Positions 1,072 to 8,803 of a stretch of DNA of 22,932 nt are shown here, in pieces (positions within the stretch are counted from its first letter, which is position 1; every line of letters begins with the position of its first letter). Source of the DNA: a virus. The translations under genes and the position numbers were made by a program. The stretch spans positions 1 through 22,932 of IMG/VR virus record IMGVR_UViG_3300042445_000806; one strand, written 5' to 3'. A model generated the notes under the pieces. That model searched no databases, had not been told where the DNA came from, and saw nothing but the letters and a program-made list of their open reading frames with translations.

Positions 1072-2163
1072 TTATTTGATTCCAGCAAGACGGCGAATAT
1101 TGATTACTTCCGCTTGACTGTTAGCACTACTAATGCTATGATTTTCTTTATTGCCTGTGATTTCTTTTGCCTCGACAAGTGCCTTCTTCTTCTCCGGTGT
1201 GCTACCTTGCAATACAGCAGGTAGATACTTGTCAAAACTACTACGTAGTTTTACAGTTTGCACACTTTCTAATAATTCAGACATAATTTCTTTCTGATCC
1301 TTGCTTAGAGGATTCAAAAGTTCGCTCATGACTTCTTTACGCTCTGCTACTGATTTGGCTTGAGAAACTTCTTTCTCTTTGCTTTCAACCAGTGCTTGCT
1401 TTTCTGAAATAACGTCACGTGCTTCTGCTAGTGCCTGTTCTTTTTCTGCGATTACTTTTAATAGTTTGCTTGTTTCTGATTTCTCATTCATCAAACTATT
1501 CTGATATTCAGAAGTAAATGCTTCAAAAATCTTACGACCGAAATCGTTTTGACGAGCAGAGTCAATATCTTCTTTAAGTTGATGGATCTCTTTGGTTAGA
1601 CCTTCTGATACCACTGATTCAACTAGACCTGCTGCCTGTTTAATAAATTTACCTTTTAATACAGTAAATTGTTCTCTTGCTTCTTTTACTAGGCGTACTT
1701 TAGTTTCTGCCAAGTCTTTCTTATCTTCGTAGAAGTCTGCAATTTCTTTAGCCAGTGCTTCGACAACGAAATTCTCTAGTTTAGCAAAGTTCCCTGCCAT
1801 GACTTTTTGGTCACCGTGAAGTTCTGTAACTTCTTTTGCAAGAGATTCAAGAACAAATTCATTTAATTTACTTGAGTGTTCACGTATTGCAACAGCATAC
1901 TTGGCTTTAGCCTCTGCTAACTGTTTACGATCTTCGGTAAATTCTTGAATTTCTGAACTTAGACGATCCGATACCATTTGGTCAATGGCTTCGATCATCA
2001 CTGATTTGTCGTGTTCGTACTTTTGTGCGAACTCTTCGCGTAGTTGCTGTGTAACTAGTTCACGGTTTTCTTGGATTTTTGAATTCCAAGCCGTTTCGAT
2101 GTCTGCTCTGATTTCCTCGGAAACCACGTTGTTCTCGAATAATGATTTTAGCGCATCCAACAT
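1072..2163 (-). CDS. 22: prohead core scaffolding protein gp22
   Basis: This is the main internal scaffold of the prohead, around which gp23 assembles and which the gp21 protease later degrades. The 363-residue protein is highly charged and almost entirely predicted helix/coiled coil, with no hydrophobic core or signal peptide. The N-terminus (MLDALKSLFENNVVSEEIRAD) and the C-terminal block (KEIMSELLESVQTVKLRSSF followed by DKYLPAVLQ) are recalled as typical of gp22 in marine T4-like phages. The middle holds four related segments near residues 61-80, 101-120, 130-149 and 181-200, each with a pattern like xVxExLxKEIxxxxED. A GGGAG ribosome site precedes the ATG. The stop is 9 bases before the gp23 start, so the two are probably co-translated. 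Abundant Glu-containing L/I-x-E triplets would be gp21 sites. Confidence 0.92.
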   Translation of the reverse strand: MLDALKSLFENNVVSEEIRADIETAWNSKIQENRELVTQQLREEFAQKYEHDKSVMIEAIDQMVSDRLSSEIQEFTEDRKQLAEAKAKYAVAIREHSSKLNEFVLESLAKEVTELHGDQKVMAGNFAKLENFVVEALAKEIADFYEDKKDLAETKVRLVKEAREQFTVLKGKFIKQAAGLVESVVSEGLTKEIHQLKEDIDSARQNDFGRKIFEAFTSEYQNSLMNEKSETSKLLKVIAEKEQALAEARDVISEKQALVESKEKEVSQAKSVAERKEVMSELLNPLSKDQKEIMSELLESVQTVKLRSSFDKYLPAVLQGSTPEKKKALVEAKEITGNKENHSISSANSQAEVINIRRLAGIK

Positions 2164-2179: not shown

Positions 2180-2809
2180 TTACTGGAGCCTGCCTATTAT
2201 TTTTAATAGGCTTTCCTTAATGTATTGCTGTGCCTTTTTGTCGCCTTGTACTTCCTGTGCTGTTAAAAATGCCTTGTAACCACCCCTGGAATTCATCAAA
2301 TGCTCATATATAGGCGTTGGATATGCGCCCGGGGCCGACGGTTGTGCTACCACATCTACTGTGATAATTTCAAATTCTGATACTTCACCGGATCCGTCAT
2401 CTTTGACGTTTCCGGATCCGCGACTACTGACACCTAGTTTTACACCGCTTTCTAACATAGTTTTAACTAGTTGTCCCATTGGCGTTGGTAAAACTTTCAT
2501 CTTACCGTAGCCATTAGGACCTTCCATCCACATTTCTGTAATCATGTGGCTAACGCGGTCTAGATTAATTTTTAGGTCATCAGGATGATCCACTTCCCCG
2601 AGAACTGAGTAACCACCAGTGATCTGATCATTGAGCGTTTTGACAGCCCTGCTAATCTCGCTCACAGGATACACTCGCTGATTTTGATTAGTGATTCCAC
2701 CTTGGATGAAAATGCCTTTCATGTAAAGGTTCTTTCCATCCGTGCCCTCGCTTTCAACCACCATACGTGCTTGGTCAAAACTTAGGTTTTCTCGAAGATA
2801 TAGGCTCAT
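2180..2809 (-). CDS. 21: prohead core protein protease gp21
   Basis: This is the maturation protease packed in the prohead core. It cleaves gp22, gp23 and other core proteins at L/I-x-E sites before DNA packaging. The length (209 aa) matches T4 gp21 (212 aa). The herpesvirus-assemblin-like serine protease features are visible: GEVDHP with the candidate catalytic His75, and GVKLGVSSRGSG with the candidate nucleophile at Ser128 or Ser129. The segment NQNQRVYP before the His is also typical. The C-terminal 30 residues (TAQEVQGDKKAQQYIKESL) may be a removable tail. The start is ATG at 2809, after GAGGATCT. It is 14 bases downstream of the acidic core gene and 16 bases upstream of gp22, in one unit. 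Assignment is firm from motifs plus neighbours. Confidence 0.93.
   Translation of the reverse strand: MSLYLRENLSFDQARMVVESEGTDGKNLYMKGIFIQGGITNQNQRVYPVSEISRAVKTLNDQITGGYSVLGEVDHPDDLKINLDRVSHMITEMWMEGPNGYGKMKVLPTPMGQLVKTMLESGVKLGVSSRGSGNVKDDGSGEVSEFEIITVDVVAQPSAPGAYPTPIYEHLMNSRGGYKAFLTAQEVQGDKKAQQYIKESLLKIIGRLQ
2192..2211 (-). promoter_or_regulatory. perfect hairpin at the gp21/gp22 junction
   Basis: An 8-bp perfect inverted repeat (GCCTATTA / TAATAGGC) with a 4-base loop lies in the last codons of gp21 (coding SLLKIIG), about 30 bases before the gp22 start and upstream of its ribosome site. No U-tract follows on the minus strand, so it does not look like an intrinsic terminator. It may be an RNA processing or stability element, or chance within AT-rich codons. 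Confidence 0.35.
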
Positions 2810-2823
2810 CTATAGATCCTCTA

Positions 2824-3657
2824 TTACTTGCCTACAATGCTCTTGGTATTGACGCCATTGTCGCCGCTACCTTTCTTTTCAGCGCCATGACCCTTTGTTG
2901 GGTGCATTTTTGTCGCTGTTTTTGAACCTGGAACATTAACATTTCCAGTATTCAAATCCTTTGTTGCTGGATTAGCCAATCCGCCTTGTGTACCGCCTTT
3001 GTTGCTTTCGCCACCTTTTGCGATATTAGCAGTTGTTCCAGTATTACCTAGTGGATTCTTACCTGCTACTGTGGATTTGTTACCAACACCGTTGTCACCC
3101 ATTTTTGCTGGTGCAACTTTTTCTACGTATTCACGCATACTTTCTTTAGCAAATGGATTCTCTTCGTCGTCGCTTTCTTCGTCGTCGCCTTCTTCCTCTT
3201 CACCATCATCTTCAGCACCTTCTTCATCATCCATGCTGTCCATGTCGTCAGAGTTTCCACCCATCTTTGCTTCAAATTCTGCTCTTAGTTCGTCTAGTGC
3301 ATCCTTGATGTCCATTACGTCATCTTTAGTTGCTGGAGCGTCACCTTCTTCGTCGCCCATAGACATTTCATCGTCCATGCCGCCGTCCATGCCGCCATCT
3401 GTAACAGCATCAATCATTGAATCGGCTTGATCTCCACCTACTGCTTCTAGATCAAAGTTTTCTTCGACGTCTTCTTCTACATCTTCTTCTACGTCGTCTT
3501 CTGTTGTTTCATCTACTTGAAAGTCATCGTCAAGTAGGTTTTCGTAAATTTCGCGAGATTTTGCCACTACTAAATCGTGGAAAACTTCCTCGGCTTTTGA
3601 TTGTTCACCGTTAATTAGGTGTTCGAGCATCTGCTCGAAACGTGTGCGATCAGTCAT
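2824..3657 (-). CDS. acidic prohead core protein (gp67/gp68-like)
   Basis: The 277-residue protein sits between the portal region and gp21, where T4 carries the small internal core genes 67 and 68. The N-terminal 45 residues (TRFEQMLEHLINGEQSKAEE, then VFHDLVVAKSREIYENLLDD) resemble the conserved head of the core-protein family seen in marine T4-like phages. Residues 45-170 are extremely acidic, with runs of Asp/Glu and short tandem EEDVEEDVEE repeats. The tail (about 185-277) is low-complexity and rich in Gly, Asn, Lys and Thr. It has no catalytic motif or membrane segment. A very strong AGGAGG ribosome site precedes the ATG. Role inferred: minor scaffold/internal core protein, probably cleaved by gp21. 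It is much longer than T4 gp67 (80 aa) or gp68 (141 aa), mainly because of the low-complexity parts. Confidence 0.7.
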   Translation of the reverse strand: MTDRTRFEQMLEHLINGEQSKAEEVFHDLVVAKSREIYENLLDDDFQVDETTEDDVEEDVEEDVEENFDLEAVGGDQADSMIDAVTDGGMDGGMDDEMSMGDEEGDAPATKDDVMDIKDALDELRAEFEAKMGGNSDDMDSMDDEEGAEDDGEEEEGDDEESDDEENPFAKESMREYVEKVAPAKMGDNGVGNKSTVAGKNPLGNTGTTANIAKGGESNKGGTQGGLANPATKDLNTGNVNVPGSKTATKMHPTKGHGAEKKGSGDNGVNTKSIVGK

Positions 3658-3693
3658 GTTAATCCTCCTGTGTAAGTTGCAAGGCTGTCGATG

Positions 3694-3701
3694 TATTTAA
3701 T
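3694..3701 (-). promoter_or_regulatory. possible late promoter element (ATTAAATA)
   Basis: On the minus strand this reads ATTAAATA, two mismatches from the T4 late element TATAAATA. It is 37 bases before the acidic core gene, inside the only sizeable gap (3658-3740) of the head cassette. The position fits a promoter for the core-protein/gp21/gp22/gp23 group, but the match is weak and the region is AT-rich. Confidence 0.3.
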
Positions 3702-3740
3702 TCTCACTGACAAAAACCGGTAGATATCGGTGTAAAATCG

Positions 3741-4325
3741 TCAATTTAAATAATTTATTTGTTTAACAAATGCGTTATAGTCAATATTGGTTAGATTACC
3801 TGTTTTAAAGTTAGGATCAAATGTGTCTGCAGATCCTACTCTAAAATATTTTGTACCAGCAAATTCTTTTAATACTGCTTCTGTTTGTCTAAGCCAGTTA
3901 CCGTAAAACGTTGCTGGCTCATGTGTTTTTTTATAGTTAGGTGTGCCTGAGTAGATGTTGTTAACTTTTTTATTTCCTTCTAAACCTTGATAGTCAAAGC
4001 CTAGAATGTATATTTCATCGTAGCCATGTGTACTGGCTAACCATAGTGCTGTAGGTCCTGAACTCCATCCTTTACTGGGTTGAAACACATTCAATTTGGG
4101 AGTATTTTTAAATCTATTATTGAAATTAGTGTATACTTGTACCGTGTCCAGCACATTGTTTTCCACTAATTCTAGAACCATTTTTACATCCACTGCTATT
4201 AAATGATCGGGCAAAAAGTCTCTGTACAGTGCATTACATCCGTAAACTGTACCATATTCTTTTAACTTTTCACAATTGATTGTTAGGCGACTGCGTCCGT
4301 TGCCCAGTACAAAAGCACGTTTCAT
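3741..4325 (-). CDS. putative GNGxSR-type transferase (GT42/DUF115-like), function unknown
   Basis: This is a 194-residue protein of unproved function. The visible pattern is a nucleotide-binding-like N-terminus (residues 1-12, VLGNGRSR), then GCNALYRDF and DHLIAVDVKM, then a Gly-rich SSGPTALWLASTHGYDEIYI strand-helix-strand leading to LGFDYQG, and finally a His region (YKKTHEPATFYGNW). The order NGxS...CNxxY...D...SSGxxA...GYxEIYxxGxDF recalls bacterial GT42 sialyltransferases such as CstII and the related DUF115/MptE-like Rossmann proteins. That comparison is from memory and no alignment was made. It lies 7 bases downstream of the 79-aa gene with no clear ribosome site, so it is probably translated by coupling. 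Position inside the head cassette suggests either a morphon insertion or a capsid/nucleotide-sugar function. Similar proteins are recalled from other marine T4-like phages. Confidence 0.55.
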   Translation of the reverse strand: MKRAFVLGNGRSRLTINCEKLKEYGTVYGCNALYRDFLPDHLIAVDVKMVLELVENNVLDTVQVYTNFNNRFKNTPKLNVFQPSKGWSSGPTALWLASTHGYDEIYILGFDYQGLEGNKKVNNIYSGTPNYKKTHEPATFYGNWLRQTEAVLKEFAGTKYFRVGSADTFDPNFKTGNLTNIDYNAFVKQINYLN

Positions 4326-4332
4326 TTAAAAT

Positions 4333-4572
4333 TTAAATTGCTTCTGCTGGAGGTGCCGCATACATACGGGCTATAAAGTCCATTTCTGCCTGCGTTTCTT
4401 TGATATGTAGATCTGATGCTCTTCTTAGTTCATTGATTTGACCTAAGGACAATCGTGTTTTCCTTGTATCTTGACTATCTAATACATCAGTGTCGCGATA
4501 AGTCATGAAACGATCATCCTGCTCGGGTTCGGCAGTTTCGCGATTAAAATAAAACAGTTCTCGTAAAATCAT
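4333..4572 (-). CDS. conserved small protein beside gp20
   Basis: A 79-residue soluble protein encoded 8 bases downstream of gp20. It has no recognised catalytic motif. The segment TRKTRLSLGQINELRRASDL (residues 37-56) followed by a helix ending in ARMYAAPPAEA is a pattern recalled from small proteins encoded next to gp20 in T4-like cyanophages. The N-terminus (MILRELFYFNRET) is also typical of that group. No good ribosome site precedes the ATG, so translation is probably coupled to gp20. The product is predicted to be a helical virion or assembly protein; its role is unknown. Confidence is high that it is a real gene, and low for any function. Confidence 0.75.
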   Translation of the reverse strand: MILRELFYFNRETAEPEQDDRFMTYRDTDVLDSQDTRKTRLSLGQINELRRASDLHIKETQAEMDFIARMYAAPPAEAI

Positions 4573-4580
4573 ATCAATAT

Positions 4581-6269
4581 TTATGCTTGTGCAGTAGGAT
4601 CAGGAGTGGCGCCGTCTTCCGCTGGAGGTGCCATGTCTGCTGGCGCTTCTTCTGTGCCTGCGGCCGCACCAGCATCTTGATCTATACTTGTTGGGCTAAC
4701 ACCTGCTGTACGAAGTTCTCCAGCAGAGTCTGCTGTAGGTGTACCTTCACCGTTTTCTTCTTTCCACATTTTTTCGTTTTCCATTAGGTCTTCGTCAGTC
4801 ATGCCTAAGAAACGTTTTAGTGCAAATCGTTTGCTGACAAACGGCAGTGCTGCCATTTGTGTAAATGTACTGATACGTTGATTATCTAATTCTGCTTGAC
4901 GATATGCGGCAAAGTTTTGTGGACTTTGGAACATCAAATCAAACAAACTGAAGTCAATGTTTACACCTTTGTTGTGCAAATACAGTTTAAATTCTGTATT
5001 GAATGTTTCCATCATAGCACCCTGCAAGCGTTCGCAGTACTTATTGAATCTTAATTCTTGAATAAATGCAGTGCCTACGCGGCCATCATTGTACTGTGCT
5101 TGGCTGTCATCCGCACCAGTAGGTAGATATGAACTTGGAATACGCAAGGCACGCATTAACTTGTTGGTAAAATAACGCAAGTCGTCAATTTCACCTAAAT
5201 TTGTACCGCCTGGTAATGTATCAACTTTACTGCCACGACCTTCTGCTGTCTGTGGAAAGAAGTAATCTTCGTTGATCCTCAATGGATTGTAACTGCTGTC
5301 AATGGCACTACCACCGCCAGTGCTACTAGGAATACGTCTTTGATGTATTTCGTTTTTGACACGCTCAACAAAACTCATGGCCAAGTGACTTGGCATGTTA
5401 CCTACATCAATGTAGAAAATTCTACGCTCTGGAGCACGTTGGATACGATAGATAATAATAGCATCTTCAAGCAATTCTTTTTGCTTGTAGACTTTAAATA
5501 CTGATTCAAGTAGACTATTACCAAATGGGTAGTTGTTGTCTAGTCCTTCTGATAAAGAAATATGTACAACGTGTTTGGCATCAATGGCATATTCGTTTTG
5601 ACTTGTGCTGAAACGTGAACCACTTTGTTGCGGGTATGCACCAGTCATACCTCTTGCGCCACTGCCACCTTGTACATAGGCAGCGCCGCCAGGTTGTTGA
5701 TTTTGATTGTTAGGACTAATCTGTGTTACAACAAGATCTTGAAAGTTTACGTTGATGTCGCGCACAACATATTGTTCAGGTTTTTTACCTTCGCTTTCAT
5801 TGACAATAATTTTAACAACTTTGCTGGGATCAACATAAAACCATTTCTGTGTTTCAGGATCTCGGATAAAAAATCCGTCGCCGTATTTGAACAAATTACG
5901 TGCAATACGAAACATTCTGTTGTTTAGTTGCTGTAGTTTAGTCCACTGTTGCAAGTACTCTTTGAGAATTTTGATTTCTGAATTAGTAGGACGACCTTTG
6001 AACTTTAATGTAAAAGGTGTACCGTTTTCTTTGTTCTTTTGTGTGGTAAATTCTGCAAGAATGTCCAAGGCAGCATTGACTTCACTGTCCCAGTCCATGG
6101 TATCATACTGCATGTAACGCTCAACACGATTGGGACTACCAGTGTATACATCAGGAAGATAACTGCTGTAGTTTGTTTTTGCAGGACCTGCACGGCCACC
6201 AACACCCGAAATTGGGCTTACATTGCTTGATTGTGTGTTAACTGGGGAAAAGTATTTTTTCCAACTCAT
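4581..6269 (-). CDS. 20: portal vertex protein gp20
   Basis: This is the dodecameric portal at the unique vertex through which DNA is packaged. The 562-residue product is close to T4 gp20 (524 aa). Family-like segments include VERYMQYDTMDWDSEVNAAL with DILAEF, the stem/core region with RNLFKYGDGFFIRD, IIIYRIQRAPERRIFYIDVG, and LMRALRIPSSYLPTG followed by QELRFNKYCERLQ. The C-terminal 60 residues are low-complexity and rich in Ala, Pro, Glu and Thr, longer than in T4. GAGGATTCTG gives the ribosome site before ATG at 6269. It is 26 bases downstream of the tape-measure candidate and precedes the small conserved gene. Recognition is firm. Confidence 0.96.
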   Translation of the reverse strand: MSWKKYFSPVNTQSSNVSPISGVGGRAGPAKTNYSSYLPDVYTGSPNRVERYMQYDTMDWDSEVNAALDILAEFTTQKNKENGTPFTLKFKGRPTNSEIKILKEYLQQWTKLQQLNNRMFRIARNLFKYGDGFFIRDPETQKWFYVDPSKVVKIIVNESEGKKPEQYVVRDINVNFQDLVVTQISPNNQNQQPGGAAYVQGGSGARGMTGAYPQQSGSRFSTSQNEYAIDAKHVVHISLSEGLDNNYPFGNSLLESVFKVYKQKELLEDAIIIYRIQRAPERRIFYIDVGNMPSHLAMSFVERVKNEIHQRRIPSSTGGGSAIDSSYNPLRINEDYFFPQTAEGRGSKVDTLPGGTNLGEIDDLRYFTNKLMRALRIPSSYLPTGADDSQAQYNDGRVGTAFIQELRFNKYCERLQGAMMETFNTEFKLYLHNKGVNIDFSLFDLMFQSPQNFAAYRQAELDNQRISTFTQMAALPFVSKRFALKRFLGMTDEDLMENEKMWKEENGEGTPTADSAGELRTAGVSPTSIDQDAGAAAGTEEAPADMAPPAEDGATPDPTAQA

Positions 6270-6295: not shown

Positions 6296-8803
6296 TTATG
6301 TTATTGATTTGCCTCGGAGTTTTCTAGTATTAGAATCTGTCTCTTTGGTGTTTGTCAATATTCCATTGGCAGCAGTATTTAACCTATCTAACTTGTCACC
6401 GATGCTTTCTAGAGCCGCTCTTTCAGTTGTACGATCCAATTCTTCGAATCGTTTCTTAAAAAGACTAAATCCTTCGTTAAATATTTTAAATTCGCCACTT
6501 AATGAATTGATGCCTTTGGTTATTTTACTCAATCCTGTTTCATCTAAATTTTTAAAAGAAGTAGTTAATGCATTAACTTCTCCTCTTAGTAATCTCATCT
6601 TTCCAGTACTAATTTCAATGTTCTTATTGGCAGTTTCTGGTATTATTAATTTGTTATAGTCTAACTTGTCCAGGGCCAAAGTCAATTCTTTTATCTGTAC
6701 TATTGATGCGGCTCGCATCTTCATAGCCTCTTTGGAAGTTGCATCTTCTGGTAGATATGGAAGTGCAGTGTCAGGAGCAGGTGCCGAAGCAGGTGCCGCA
6801 GCCTGGCCAGGAGTTTTTTTGGCATATGCGGCTGGATCTTTGTTGTATTCAGCAAGATCGGGTTTATCCCAAGGTCTACCAGTGGATGGATTTATTTCCA
6901 TACCTTTGTAAGGACCTTCTTGCGGGAATGGATAGTCTTGACCAGCATTTCCTGACATGGTCAGTAAGGTTAAAGGAACAGATAATCTGGCGCCAGCGCC
7001 TAACACGTTTCTTGGATTTATTGGAAGTTTTCCACTTCTTCCGGGTGTCTTACCGCCGGGTTTGTTTCGGTCTGGGCCATCAGGTATATCAATATCTGGG
7101 CCGCCATTCATATTCCTCATAATAGCACGGGCCAAGGCCATTTGTACTATTGTCGATCCGAACAGTGCTAAAAATCCTGCACCTAATGCTGCATACGTCC
7201 ACGGGCTGGTAAACATTTCAGATAATATTGCTTTGAATGCTGGAGCGACTAATTCTCCTAACTTTTTAAAAGCAAAATTCAATGCGGCAGCAACTCCTCC
7301 AGGACCGTTGAGTATGGCTACAAACTGTTCTAAAAATCTAGTAAGAGCAGGTATTACTTTTTGAATGTTATCAGCAACTAATTTAAACACTGGCATTAAT
7401 GCCTTTAACAGTTGTTCTCGTAGGGCCATTAATTGTTTGTCAAGATTTAACATGTTTTTACTTGTGTCTTTTAATGCTTTGCCTTGAGCAACTTGGGCGG
7501 CGGCCGCTTCTTGACCAAATTTGTCAAGTCCTATCATAGTGGACGCGGCTAGGCCAGTTTTGCTATTTAGATTTAACATTTGTCCAGTAGTGACACCGGT
7601 TGTTTCCATCAATTTACCCATTCTTATGGACTCTTCTCTAATAACTTTATTGGCTTCTTCTTGAGATACTGTGCCTTTCCTTAATTGCATTGACAGTTTC
7701 ACCAATGCAGGAGAATTCCTTGCTATGTCCATGGCCAAGTCATTGCTGGCACTAGGTACACCGTTGTTCAGCATTAAATCGGCCATAGCGTCTGCATAAT
7801 CTTTGCCTACCTCAGGAACCTTACTCAGTGCTGCCATGAACGATTGTGTTTCTTTTCCCATTGAGCCGAGTTGTCGATAAAATAATTTTAATCGCTTATC
7901 CGACATTTGTTCAGCCAACGCTTTTTGGGCTTCTTGGCGAGTCATACCATGCACACGGGACAGCATATCTAACTGTAACAAATGTTCTTTAGTGCTTTCA
8001 TTTAATTCATTCTGGTTCATGTTTTGAGCACGACCAAGACGAGTCTGCATTGCAAGATACCCTGCGGTCAAGTCAGCAGTTTCTTCCATGCTGAATCCTA
8101 ATCTTGCTAAACCTTGTTGAAATGGTCCTTGTAGACTTTTGTTAACCGCAGTAAAAATTTTAGCACCAGCAGTGGTATTTCCACCTAGTTGTGCCAGTGC
8201 TGAACTGTTTTCAGTAATGGCTTTTACAAACACTTCTAATGGCAACCCGGCACGAGCAGCCATGTCTCTCATAGTGTTAATACCACTGCCAAAATCTGCA
8301 CCAACTGTACTTAATTTCCTGAACATGTCTATCTGTTCCTGCATGGCTTTGCCCACAGCACCAATAATTGGCCCAATTATTGGGATGCCGCTAAGTGCAT
8401 CAGTAAAATCAGTAACTTTAGGTGTTGCAGAACTGAACGCAAAGTTAAGAGTTTTGCCTATGACATTCCCAATGCTGTTTAAGACGCCGACTACGTCTCT
8501 AAGACCATCCATGAATTTTTTTCGTTTTTCTTTTTCTTCTTCTATGCGTTTGTTAAGTTGATCTCTGCGTTCTATTTCCTCGGCTATGGATTTTCGATTT
8601 TTGTTATTTTGTTCAAGATTTTTTTGTTGTTCTTTAGTTGTACGTTTTAGTGCTTCTTCATATGCTCTTTGTATTTTGGCTGCTTCACTTTTATTTGAAT
8701 TAGTGGCCAAAGTGGCTTGAAGCAACGCATACAGTGTTGCTTCAGTTGCGGCATTTTCTAACAAAATCGGTTGCCCGCCTAATTCACCAGTGACTTCAGC
8801 CAT
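6296..8803 (-). CDS. candidate tail tape measure protein (gp29-like role)
   Basis: The 835-residue protein is the largest in the left half. Residues 40-100 form a strongly charged coiled coil, 135-150 a small hydrophobic Gly/Ile/Pro patch (SGIPIIGPIIG), 170-470 a mostly helical body, and 535-560 a clear hydrophobic stretch (YAALGAGFLALFGSTIVQMA) that could span a membrane. Residues 565-690 are Pro/Gly-rich linker and the end is again helical/coiled. A long helical rod with an internal transmembrane-like patch is typical of tail tape measures, which set tail length and may exit into the host membrane. It sits directly opposite gp26, and in T4 the tape measure gene 29 follows 26-51-27-28. A GGGTGA ribosome site precedes ATG at 8803. 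The call rests on architecture and context, not on a recognised domain; another virion protein is possible. Confidence 0.6.
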   Translation of the reverse strand: MAEVTGELGGQPILLENAATEATLYALLQATLATNSNKSEAAKIQRAYEEALKRTTKEQQKNLEQNNKNRKSIAEEIERRDQLNKRIEEEKEKRKKFMDGLRDVVGVLNSIGNVIGKTLNFAFSSATPKVTDFTDALSGIPIIGPIIGAVGKAMQEQIDMFRKLSTVGADFGSGINTMRDMAARAGLPLEVFVKAITENSSALAQLGGNTTAGAKIFTAVNKSLQGPFQQGLARLGFSMEETADLTAGYLAMQTRLGRAQNMNQNELNESTKEHLLQLDMLSRVHGMTRQEAQKALAEQMSDKRLKLFYRQLGSMGKETQSFMAALSKVPEVGKDYADAMADLMLNNGVPSASNDLAMDIARNSPALVKLSMQLRKGTVSQEEANKVIREESIRMGKLMETTGVTTGQMLNLNSKTGLAASTMIGLDKFGQEAAAAQVAQGKALKDTSKNMLNLDKQLMALREQLLKALMPVFKLVADNIQKVIPALTRFLEQFVAILNGPGGVAAALNFAFKKLGELVAPAFKAILSEMFTSPWTYAALGAGFLALFGSTIVQMALARAIMRNMNGGPDIDIPDGPDRNKPGGKTPGRSGKLPINPRNVLGAGARLSVPLTLLTMSGNAGQDYPFPQEGPYKGMEINPSTGRPWDKPDLAEYNKDPAAYAKKTPGQAAAPASAPAPDTALPYLPEDATSKEAMKMRAASIVQIKELTLALDKLDYNKLIIPETANKNIEISTGKMRLLRGEVNALTTSFKNLDETGLSKITKGINSLSGEFKIFNEGFSLFKKRFEELDRTTERAALESIGDKLDRLNTAANGILTNTKETDSNTRKLRGKSIT

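Follow-up and report, generated by a model that had tools for sequence, protein, structure and literature searches.

The closest described relatives of the phage protein analyzed here fall into three groups of enzymes. Maf_flag10 proteins (PF01973/DUF115, PDB 5mu5) are encoded next to assembly genes and act on flagellin, i.e., their acceptor is an assembly subunit (excerpts of PMC3426422), and a Clostridium Maf has been reported to use Kdo (sections of PMC11339370). The GT42 enzymes CstI and CstII (PF06002) form a second group, in which His188 is the general base of CstII (PMC4202792, in part). The third is represented by the MptE-like 6-hydroxymethylpterin diphosphokinase 8sd5. Glycosylation of phage particles is also on record, since virions of mycobacteriophages carry sugars on capsid and tail subunits (Freeman 2023, as cited in excerpts of PMC12619734). 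Those mycobacteriophages belong to a different phage group from the viruses described below.

Here, we describe a 194-aa protein encoded in the head operon of a T4-type virus. The analysis covered one virus record, 22,932 bases long and hereafter called the window. The protein is a relative within the GT42/DUF115 (CstII-Maf-MptE) superfamily that lacks the GT42 general base. Similar to Maf, it combines this fold with a gene adjoining assembly genes, whereas Maf has two more domains (sections of PMC11339370) and the phage protein is a single domain. With CstI and CstII it has the fold, profile similarity and pocket positions in common, yet His188 and Arg129 are not conserved in the phage family. 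With 8sd5 it shares the fold core, without a sequence-profile match. The fixed place of the gene in the head operon suggests, short of proof, that these phages sugar-coat part of their own particle. A limited literature search, in which absence is not proof, returned no paper on this gene; the consulted portions of PMC4360716 and PMC7029224 do not mention it, and those of PMC12619734 cover glycosyltransferases of other large aquatic phages.

The gene and its head operon

A preliminary description made from the bare sequence had put a putative transferase at positions 3741-4325, and this location is correct. The gene lies on the minus strand as an intact ORF, with its ATG at 4325 and its stop ending at 3741, while the plus strand of the same stretch contains many stops. 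In the minus-strand order, the large ORF is followed by the portal gene gp20, the 79-aa ORF, the 194-aa gene, the acidic 277-aa gene, the protease gene gp21 and the core protein (Table 1). The earlier placement, with gp20 on one side and the core protein on the other, is accurate but coarse, since the 79-aa ORF, the acidic gene and gp21 are also located there; the head-gene setting as such is borne out, with the cassette genes kept around the gene in related loci. A relative of the core protein in one PA5oct-like phage is annotated as scaffolding protein. The 79-aa ORF sits at the position of gp67, which makes gp67 a candidate identity by position only, and searches of Pfam and PHROG gave no match for the acidic protein.

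Seven nucleotides separate the stop of the 79-aa ORF from the start codon of the 194-aa gene, and a pattern search revealed no evident Shine-Dalgarno sequence ahead of this start. Downstream, a hairpin with a T run comes first and then, 43 nt ahead of the acidic gene, a late-promoter-like TTAAATA block. Both elements precede the acidic gene in the loci inspected, with and without the 194-aa gene. Judged by sequence, the hairpin and T run may end the gp20 transcript, and the TTAAATA/GACAGCCTTG block is perhaps a late promoter. The block that follows TTAAATA and ends in GACAGCCTTG ahead of the acidic gene is much alike in most of the related loci inspected, among carriers and non-carriers.

Table 1. 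Positions of the head-operon features in the window and of the Kdo-pathway genes in two carrier genomes.
Feature	Position	Strand	Basis
Large ORF	6296-8803	-	
Portal gp20	4581-6269	-	PF07230, E 2.2e-109
79-aa ORF, directly upstream of the 194-aa gene	4333-4572	-	phrog_13986, E 3e-6; neighbour kept in related loci
194-aa putative transferase, GT42/DUF115 superfamily	3741-4325	-	ORF, AF2 model, fold, GT42 profile, conservation
Intergenic stretch 3' of the 194-aa gene	3658-3740	-	ACCG...CGGT short hairpin and T run, then TTAAATA block
Acidic 277-aa protein, next gene after the 194-aa gene	2824-3657	-	same place in related loci
Prohead protease gp21	2180-2809	-	PF03420, E 7.5e-28
Core (scaffold-position) protein	1072-2163	-	phrog_10922, E 6e-78
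KdsA and KdsB, genome G002	L346:5295-7254		
KdsA and KdsB, genome G007	L347:2457-3873		

Fold and profile relationships

Taken alone, the 194-aa protein gave nothing useful in a PDB search (best E 0.51), and its matches to PF06002 (E 0.079, 12.9 bits with a cut-off of 25) and to phrog_4603, "alpha-2,3-sialyltransferase" (E 0.0011), are only suggestive of GT42. Profiles gave a clearer result. With 33 rows, nine of the ten PDB matches belonged to GT42 (best E 0.016); with 43 rows, nine GT42 sequences came on top with E-values from 3.9e-7 to 1.7e-5, and the first match outside GT42 was an engineered protein (E 0.021).

The AlphaFold2 model (pLDDT 94.8, pTM 0.91) leads to the same superfamily. Its top structural match in VIA-align is Maf 5mu5 (Z 13.2, 169 residues, rmsd 3.6), and the GT42 enzymes CstI and CstII range from Z 9.8 to 11.0, with CstII 1ro7 at 11.0 over 174 residues and CstI 2p2v at 10.8. 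The Pasteurella sialyltransferase 9c08 (Z 9.6) and GT29 enzymes (up to 7.9) score lower. In Foldseek, the GT42-like 9c08 is the top PDB match (E 4.9e-4), and 20 viral models fall under E 0.001, most of them nameless, with one DUF115 and one MptE-like protein. Retaining Kdo transferases are absent from the matches listed for the model, which proves nothing. The GT42/DUF115 class named in the preliminary description is therefore right, and the match to an unrelated fold that it had named as a refutation did not come out.

A nucleotide or pterin enzyme of the MptE type, a diphosphokinase instead of a sugar transferase, has very little probability in our estimation. This reading draws on the alignment of 8sd5 (Z 9.9 over 133 residues), on thiamine pyrophosphokinases reaching Z 8.8, on weak matches of the PF01973/MptE-like Pfam model in 7 of 33 family members (best E 0.021) and on a divergent copy that a 270-kb record carries close to a QueD gene. 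Yet the alignments with Maf and CstII are longer, and the 43-row profile returned GT42 but neither MptE nor thiamine pyrophosphokinases up to E 10, for which reason these are disfavoured as nearest relatives. A search of the window record with PF01973 itself gave no match at E 1.

A conserved pocket without the GT42 base

The motifs GNGRSR (residues 8-13), CNALY (30-34), D46, SSGPTA (88-93) and GYDEIYILGFD (101-111) occur in the order that had been noticed beforehand. They are more than chance, since 33 homologues show little or no variation in their columns, which is largely true of 43 and also of 161 cassette members. Invariant residues among the 33 homologues include G8, N9, G10, R13, G25, Y28, N31, Y34, R35, D46, G86, W87, G109, D111, N122, N123, Y125, Y131, N143 and W144. 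When distant members are added (43 rows), G8, N9, R13, C30, N31, Y34, R35, G90, A93, D111, N123 and Y131 are still invariant. The lid carries the family motif NNxYxxTxxY. The gene is under purifying selection (rough dN/dS of 0.02-0.20 in nine pairs, those with dS above 1 being near saturation).

In the 43-row alignment, CstII residues Asn31, Ser132, Gly133 and Asp154 are paired with N31, S89, G90 and D111; G86 falls opposite Arg129 and residue 141 opposite His188, and the lid part is uncertain. Asn9, Asn31 and Asp154 of CstII are presumably part of the CMP site. The pocket columns N9, N31, S89, G90 and D111 are conserved in 159 to 161 of the 161 cassette members, and the pocket residues also in 75 relatives from another gene setting. 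G86, aligned to the acceptor-site Arg129, is glycine in 161/161.

The late His expected near residues 139-146 is missing, as histidines occur at 41, 100 and 135 only and none at 139-146. The H135 column is His in 15/161 cassette and 28/75 other members, and residue 141 is mostly Phe or Tyr (F80 Y58 H21 N2 among the 161 cassette members; F59 Y5 H4 plus others among the 75). The most often conserved histidine, H100 (122/161 cassette, 65/75 other members), lies in the helix after SSG and not at the place of CstII His188. No invariant or near-invariant His is found across the 33-row and 43-row alignments. Loss of key positions in homologues thus holds for the CstII-type His and not for the nucleotide pocket.

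Because the pocket is retained and the GT42 base is not, a dead scaffold is less likely than an enzyme that uses a different base, and we consider enzyme activity of the 194-aa protein quite probable; the invariant D46 might, as a guess, be the catalytic base, with E52 and Y131 as further candidates. A former enzyme that now serves as an assembly or structural factor of the head, binding without transfer, seems improbable to us. The missing base, the position among head genes and N-terminal extensions that vary and, in 53/160 cassette members, bear a basic tag would all fit such a factor, but the pocket is kept in nearly all of the 161 cassette and 75 other-setting members, as expected of an enzyme, and heads are built without the gene in 13/58 loci (see below).

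The basic tag, of the MSKIDKRQYSKQEW type, lies in an N-terminal extension before the enzyme domain, as in L048:4673-5383, and is absent from the window's protein. A search with one pattern found no such tag in other ORFs of the loci searched.

Distribution and evolution of the head-operon gene

Among viral contigs, 355 relatives were found, of which the best 80 were kept. Once four contigs out of bacterial bins are counted in, 84/84 loci have two or more of the other cassette genes and 54 have all five, most of the remainder being short contigs. A profile scan gave 67 new loci, likewise selected by the gene, and 67/67 are in the cassette; the scans kept the best 80 of about 600 matches. As the 84 loci had been selected by the 194-aa gene itself, a sample centred on gp21 was taken to count presence (80 loci, 58 of them spanning gp20 to gp21). 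The gene lies between gp20 and gp21 in 45/58 of these loci. In the other 13 the site is empty and the 79-aa ORF adjoins the acidic gene, so presence in the T4-type head cassette is not constant.

No family member was detected by profile in the scanned stretches of the PA5oct, CBB and Phosso head cassettes. The PA5oct annotation lists, from mass spectrometry, both genes that separate portal from protease as encoding virion proteins; the first corresponds to the 79-aa ORF by a weak match (E 1e-4), the second to the acidic gene by place only. Among the best 25 of 2487 gp20 matches, almost every isolate is a jumbo phage, and records with the 194-aa gene reach 330, 270 and 251 kb. The carriers are aquatic T4-type phages, often jumbo.

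In a gp20 and gp21 tree of 112 tips, of which 15 lack the gene, Fitch parsimony counts 7 changes of presence, compared with a mean of 14.3 and a minimum of 12 in 200 shuffles. Distances of the 194-aa gene track those of gp20 and gp21 (Spearman 0.63 for 97 tips, against 0.14 at best in 500 permutations). Both results led us to drop a recent mobile insertion as an explanation. Based on the tree, the distances and the empty loci, we regard the gene as an old, place-bound and dispensable member of the operon.

The family corresponds to PHROG 30607 (E 4e-29), which has a function-less label. The cultured members found all come from the Pelagibacter phages HTVC008M and Mosig (3/50,697 records, annotated as hypothetical). 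They share 38-47% identity with the 194-aa protein but are encoded outside the head operon, where their neighbours are UvsY and UvsW, or genes of gp59-like and ssDNA-binding proteins.

Sister copies in glycan islands

The family comprises 237 unique sequences, 162 in the cassette and 75 elsewhere, and a tree of 71 sampled sequences separates the two sets with no misplaced tip (support 0.997). A set of 80 contigs found with one non-cassette member shows the setting of these sister copies. The island copy lies upstream of a UvsW-like helicase (75/80), with a SprT-like gene in 80/80, p291 in 79/80, p375 in 78/80 and a GT61 homologue (E 5e-20) in 40/80; m337 is counted in 79/80, a number that includes cross-hits to p291. 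The p375 protein is without Pfam match and m337 has only a weak "putative glycosyltransferase" match.

The p291 gene adjoins the island copy directly upstream (L253:4961-5833; 79/80 of L253-L332). It encodes a short protein with an invariant HP motif, whose Pfam matches are weak and below cut-off. Its model (pLDDT 94.6) has the retaining Kdo-transferase fold: KpsC, WbbB and KrkA, all of them retaining Kdo transferases, make up the best 24 Foldseek matches, and KpsC aligns with Z 14.6 over 238 residues, the first unrelated row having 11.0. The sequence profile of p291 found no retaining Kdo transferase. In the island of G002, nine scanned proteins include GT25 members (E 1e-12 and 2e-14), GT8-like proteins below cut-off and a cytidylyltransferase-like/mannose isomerase fusion.

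The islands give context to the capsid or surface decoration that the preliminary description had considered as a possible role. They also bring up a close rival reading, in which an active transferase of the same kind modifies the host surface (LPS or capsule) for rival exclusion or release and the head operon merely provides late expression. We rate this as rather unlikely, although several observations agree with it: GT61, GT25 and Kdo-transferase-fold genes share the islands of the sister copies, lipooligosaccharide is among the molecules that GT42 enzymes modify (PMC4202792, in part), and glycosyltransferases of Pelagimyophages have been interpreted as modifiers of the host O-chain (passages of PMC7029224). 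Against it, the head copy forms its own clade in the 71-sequence tree and is kept inside the head operon. In addition, two genomes (G013 and G014) have an island copy besides the cassette copy, which makes a second role for the head copy more likely.

Two further arrangements were seen. In the 270-kb genome G001 a second, divergent family member lies near a QueD-like gene and tail-fibre-like ORFs (L345:3717-5846). A tandem pair of family members occurs at L092:4283-5621, on a contig that was binned as an archaeon and is probably viral.

Sugar-donor genes

Two cassette carriers, G002 (330 kb) and G007 (98.5 kb), encode KdsA near KdsB, a few kb from the helicase. KdsA passes the equivalog cut-off in both, whereas for KdsB the best models are of the kdsB type and below their own cut-offs; one ORF separates the two genes in G002. 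Such genes are rare. CMP-sugar synthetases were found in 2/23 long records, and in 1/35 further records, that one a bacterial bin and the other 34 virus records giving none. NeuB was found in 0/23 long records, DAHP_synth_1 matched in 4/45 records, one of which is the same bacterial bin, and both KdsA and KdsB are without match in the records of 270, 251 and 196 kb. Gram-negative hosts make CMP-Kdo. A NodU-like carbamoyltransferase is also encoded near KdsA and KdsB in G002.

Proposed function

We propose that the protein would act as a small soluble glycosyltransferase, read late in infection as the last gene of the portal transcript. The pocket formed by GNGxSR, CNA, SSG and GFD would bind a CMP-activated ulosonic acid, preferably of the Kdo type, and the NNxYxxTxxY lid would close over the bound donor. 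The sugar would then pass to a head protein, either ahead of prohead assembly or in its course, much like the transfer by Maf to flagellin. The parts of this model differ in strength. We lean towards a CMP-linked donor. For a head protein as acceptor the chances seem not quite even, and the combination of activity, a CMP-linked donor and a head acceptor, irrespective of the sugar, is put forward tentatively. Kdo as the sugar is possible but doubtful; it is favoured because of the p291 fold next to the sister copy and because of KdsA and KdsB in two carriers. A head acceptor is preferred because a separate clade stays in the head operon despite the island copies, and because Maf does likewise with flagellin.

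The unchanged capsid proteins and the loci that do without the gene speak against a head acceptor. A special capsid protein in carriers was rejected as a candidate, since the major capsid protein is alike in length and Ser/Thr content (18.6 vs 18.9%) when 88 carriers are compared with 8 non-carriers, 8 of undecided state being left out. More broadly, the reading of a CMP-donor transferase acting on the head has to contend with the missing GT42 base, the absence of the gene from 13/58 loci and from the PA5oct, CBB and Phosso head cassettes, and the rarity of donor genes. In the full scenario, a widespread aquatic T4-type jumbo lineage would use an enzyme integrated in its head operon to decorate the phage head with Kdo or a related ulosonic acid; some members would make CMP-Kdo by KdsA and KdsB, and a sister enzyme arisen by duplication would work for a surface-glycan island carried by the phage. 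This scenario is unlikely to be correct in all its parts.

If the head-acceptor model is true, a single gene of fixed position makes virion glycosylation in T4-type phages testable, and related loci without (L111, L112) and with the gene (L113, L109) offer natural controls. The GT42/DUF115 superfamily would gain a branch without the known catalytic His, and the phage-borne CMP-Kdo genes a possible use. Even if the acceptor is guessed wrongly, a large nameless enzyme family of uncultivated phages has been described.

Elsewhere in the window, beside gp46/gp47-like genes, a GIY-YIG ORF at 11406-11840 matches SegE (PF19835, E 1e-36). The top PHROG match of this ORF is phrog_447, whose NAD synthetase label looks wrong.
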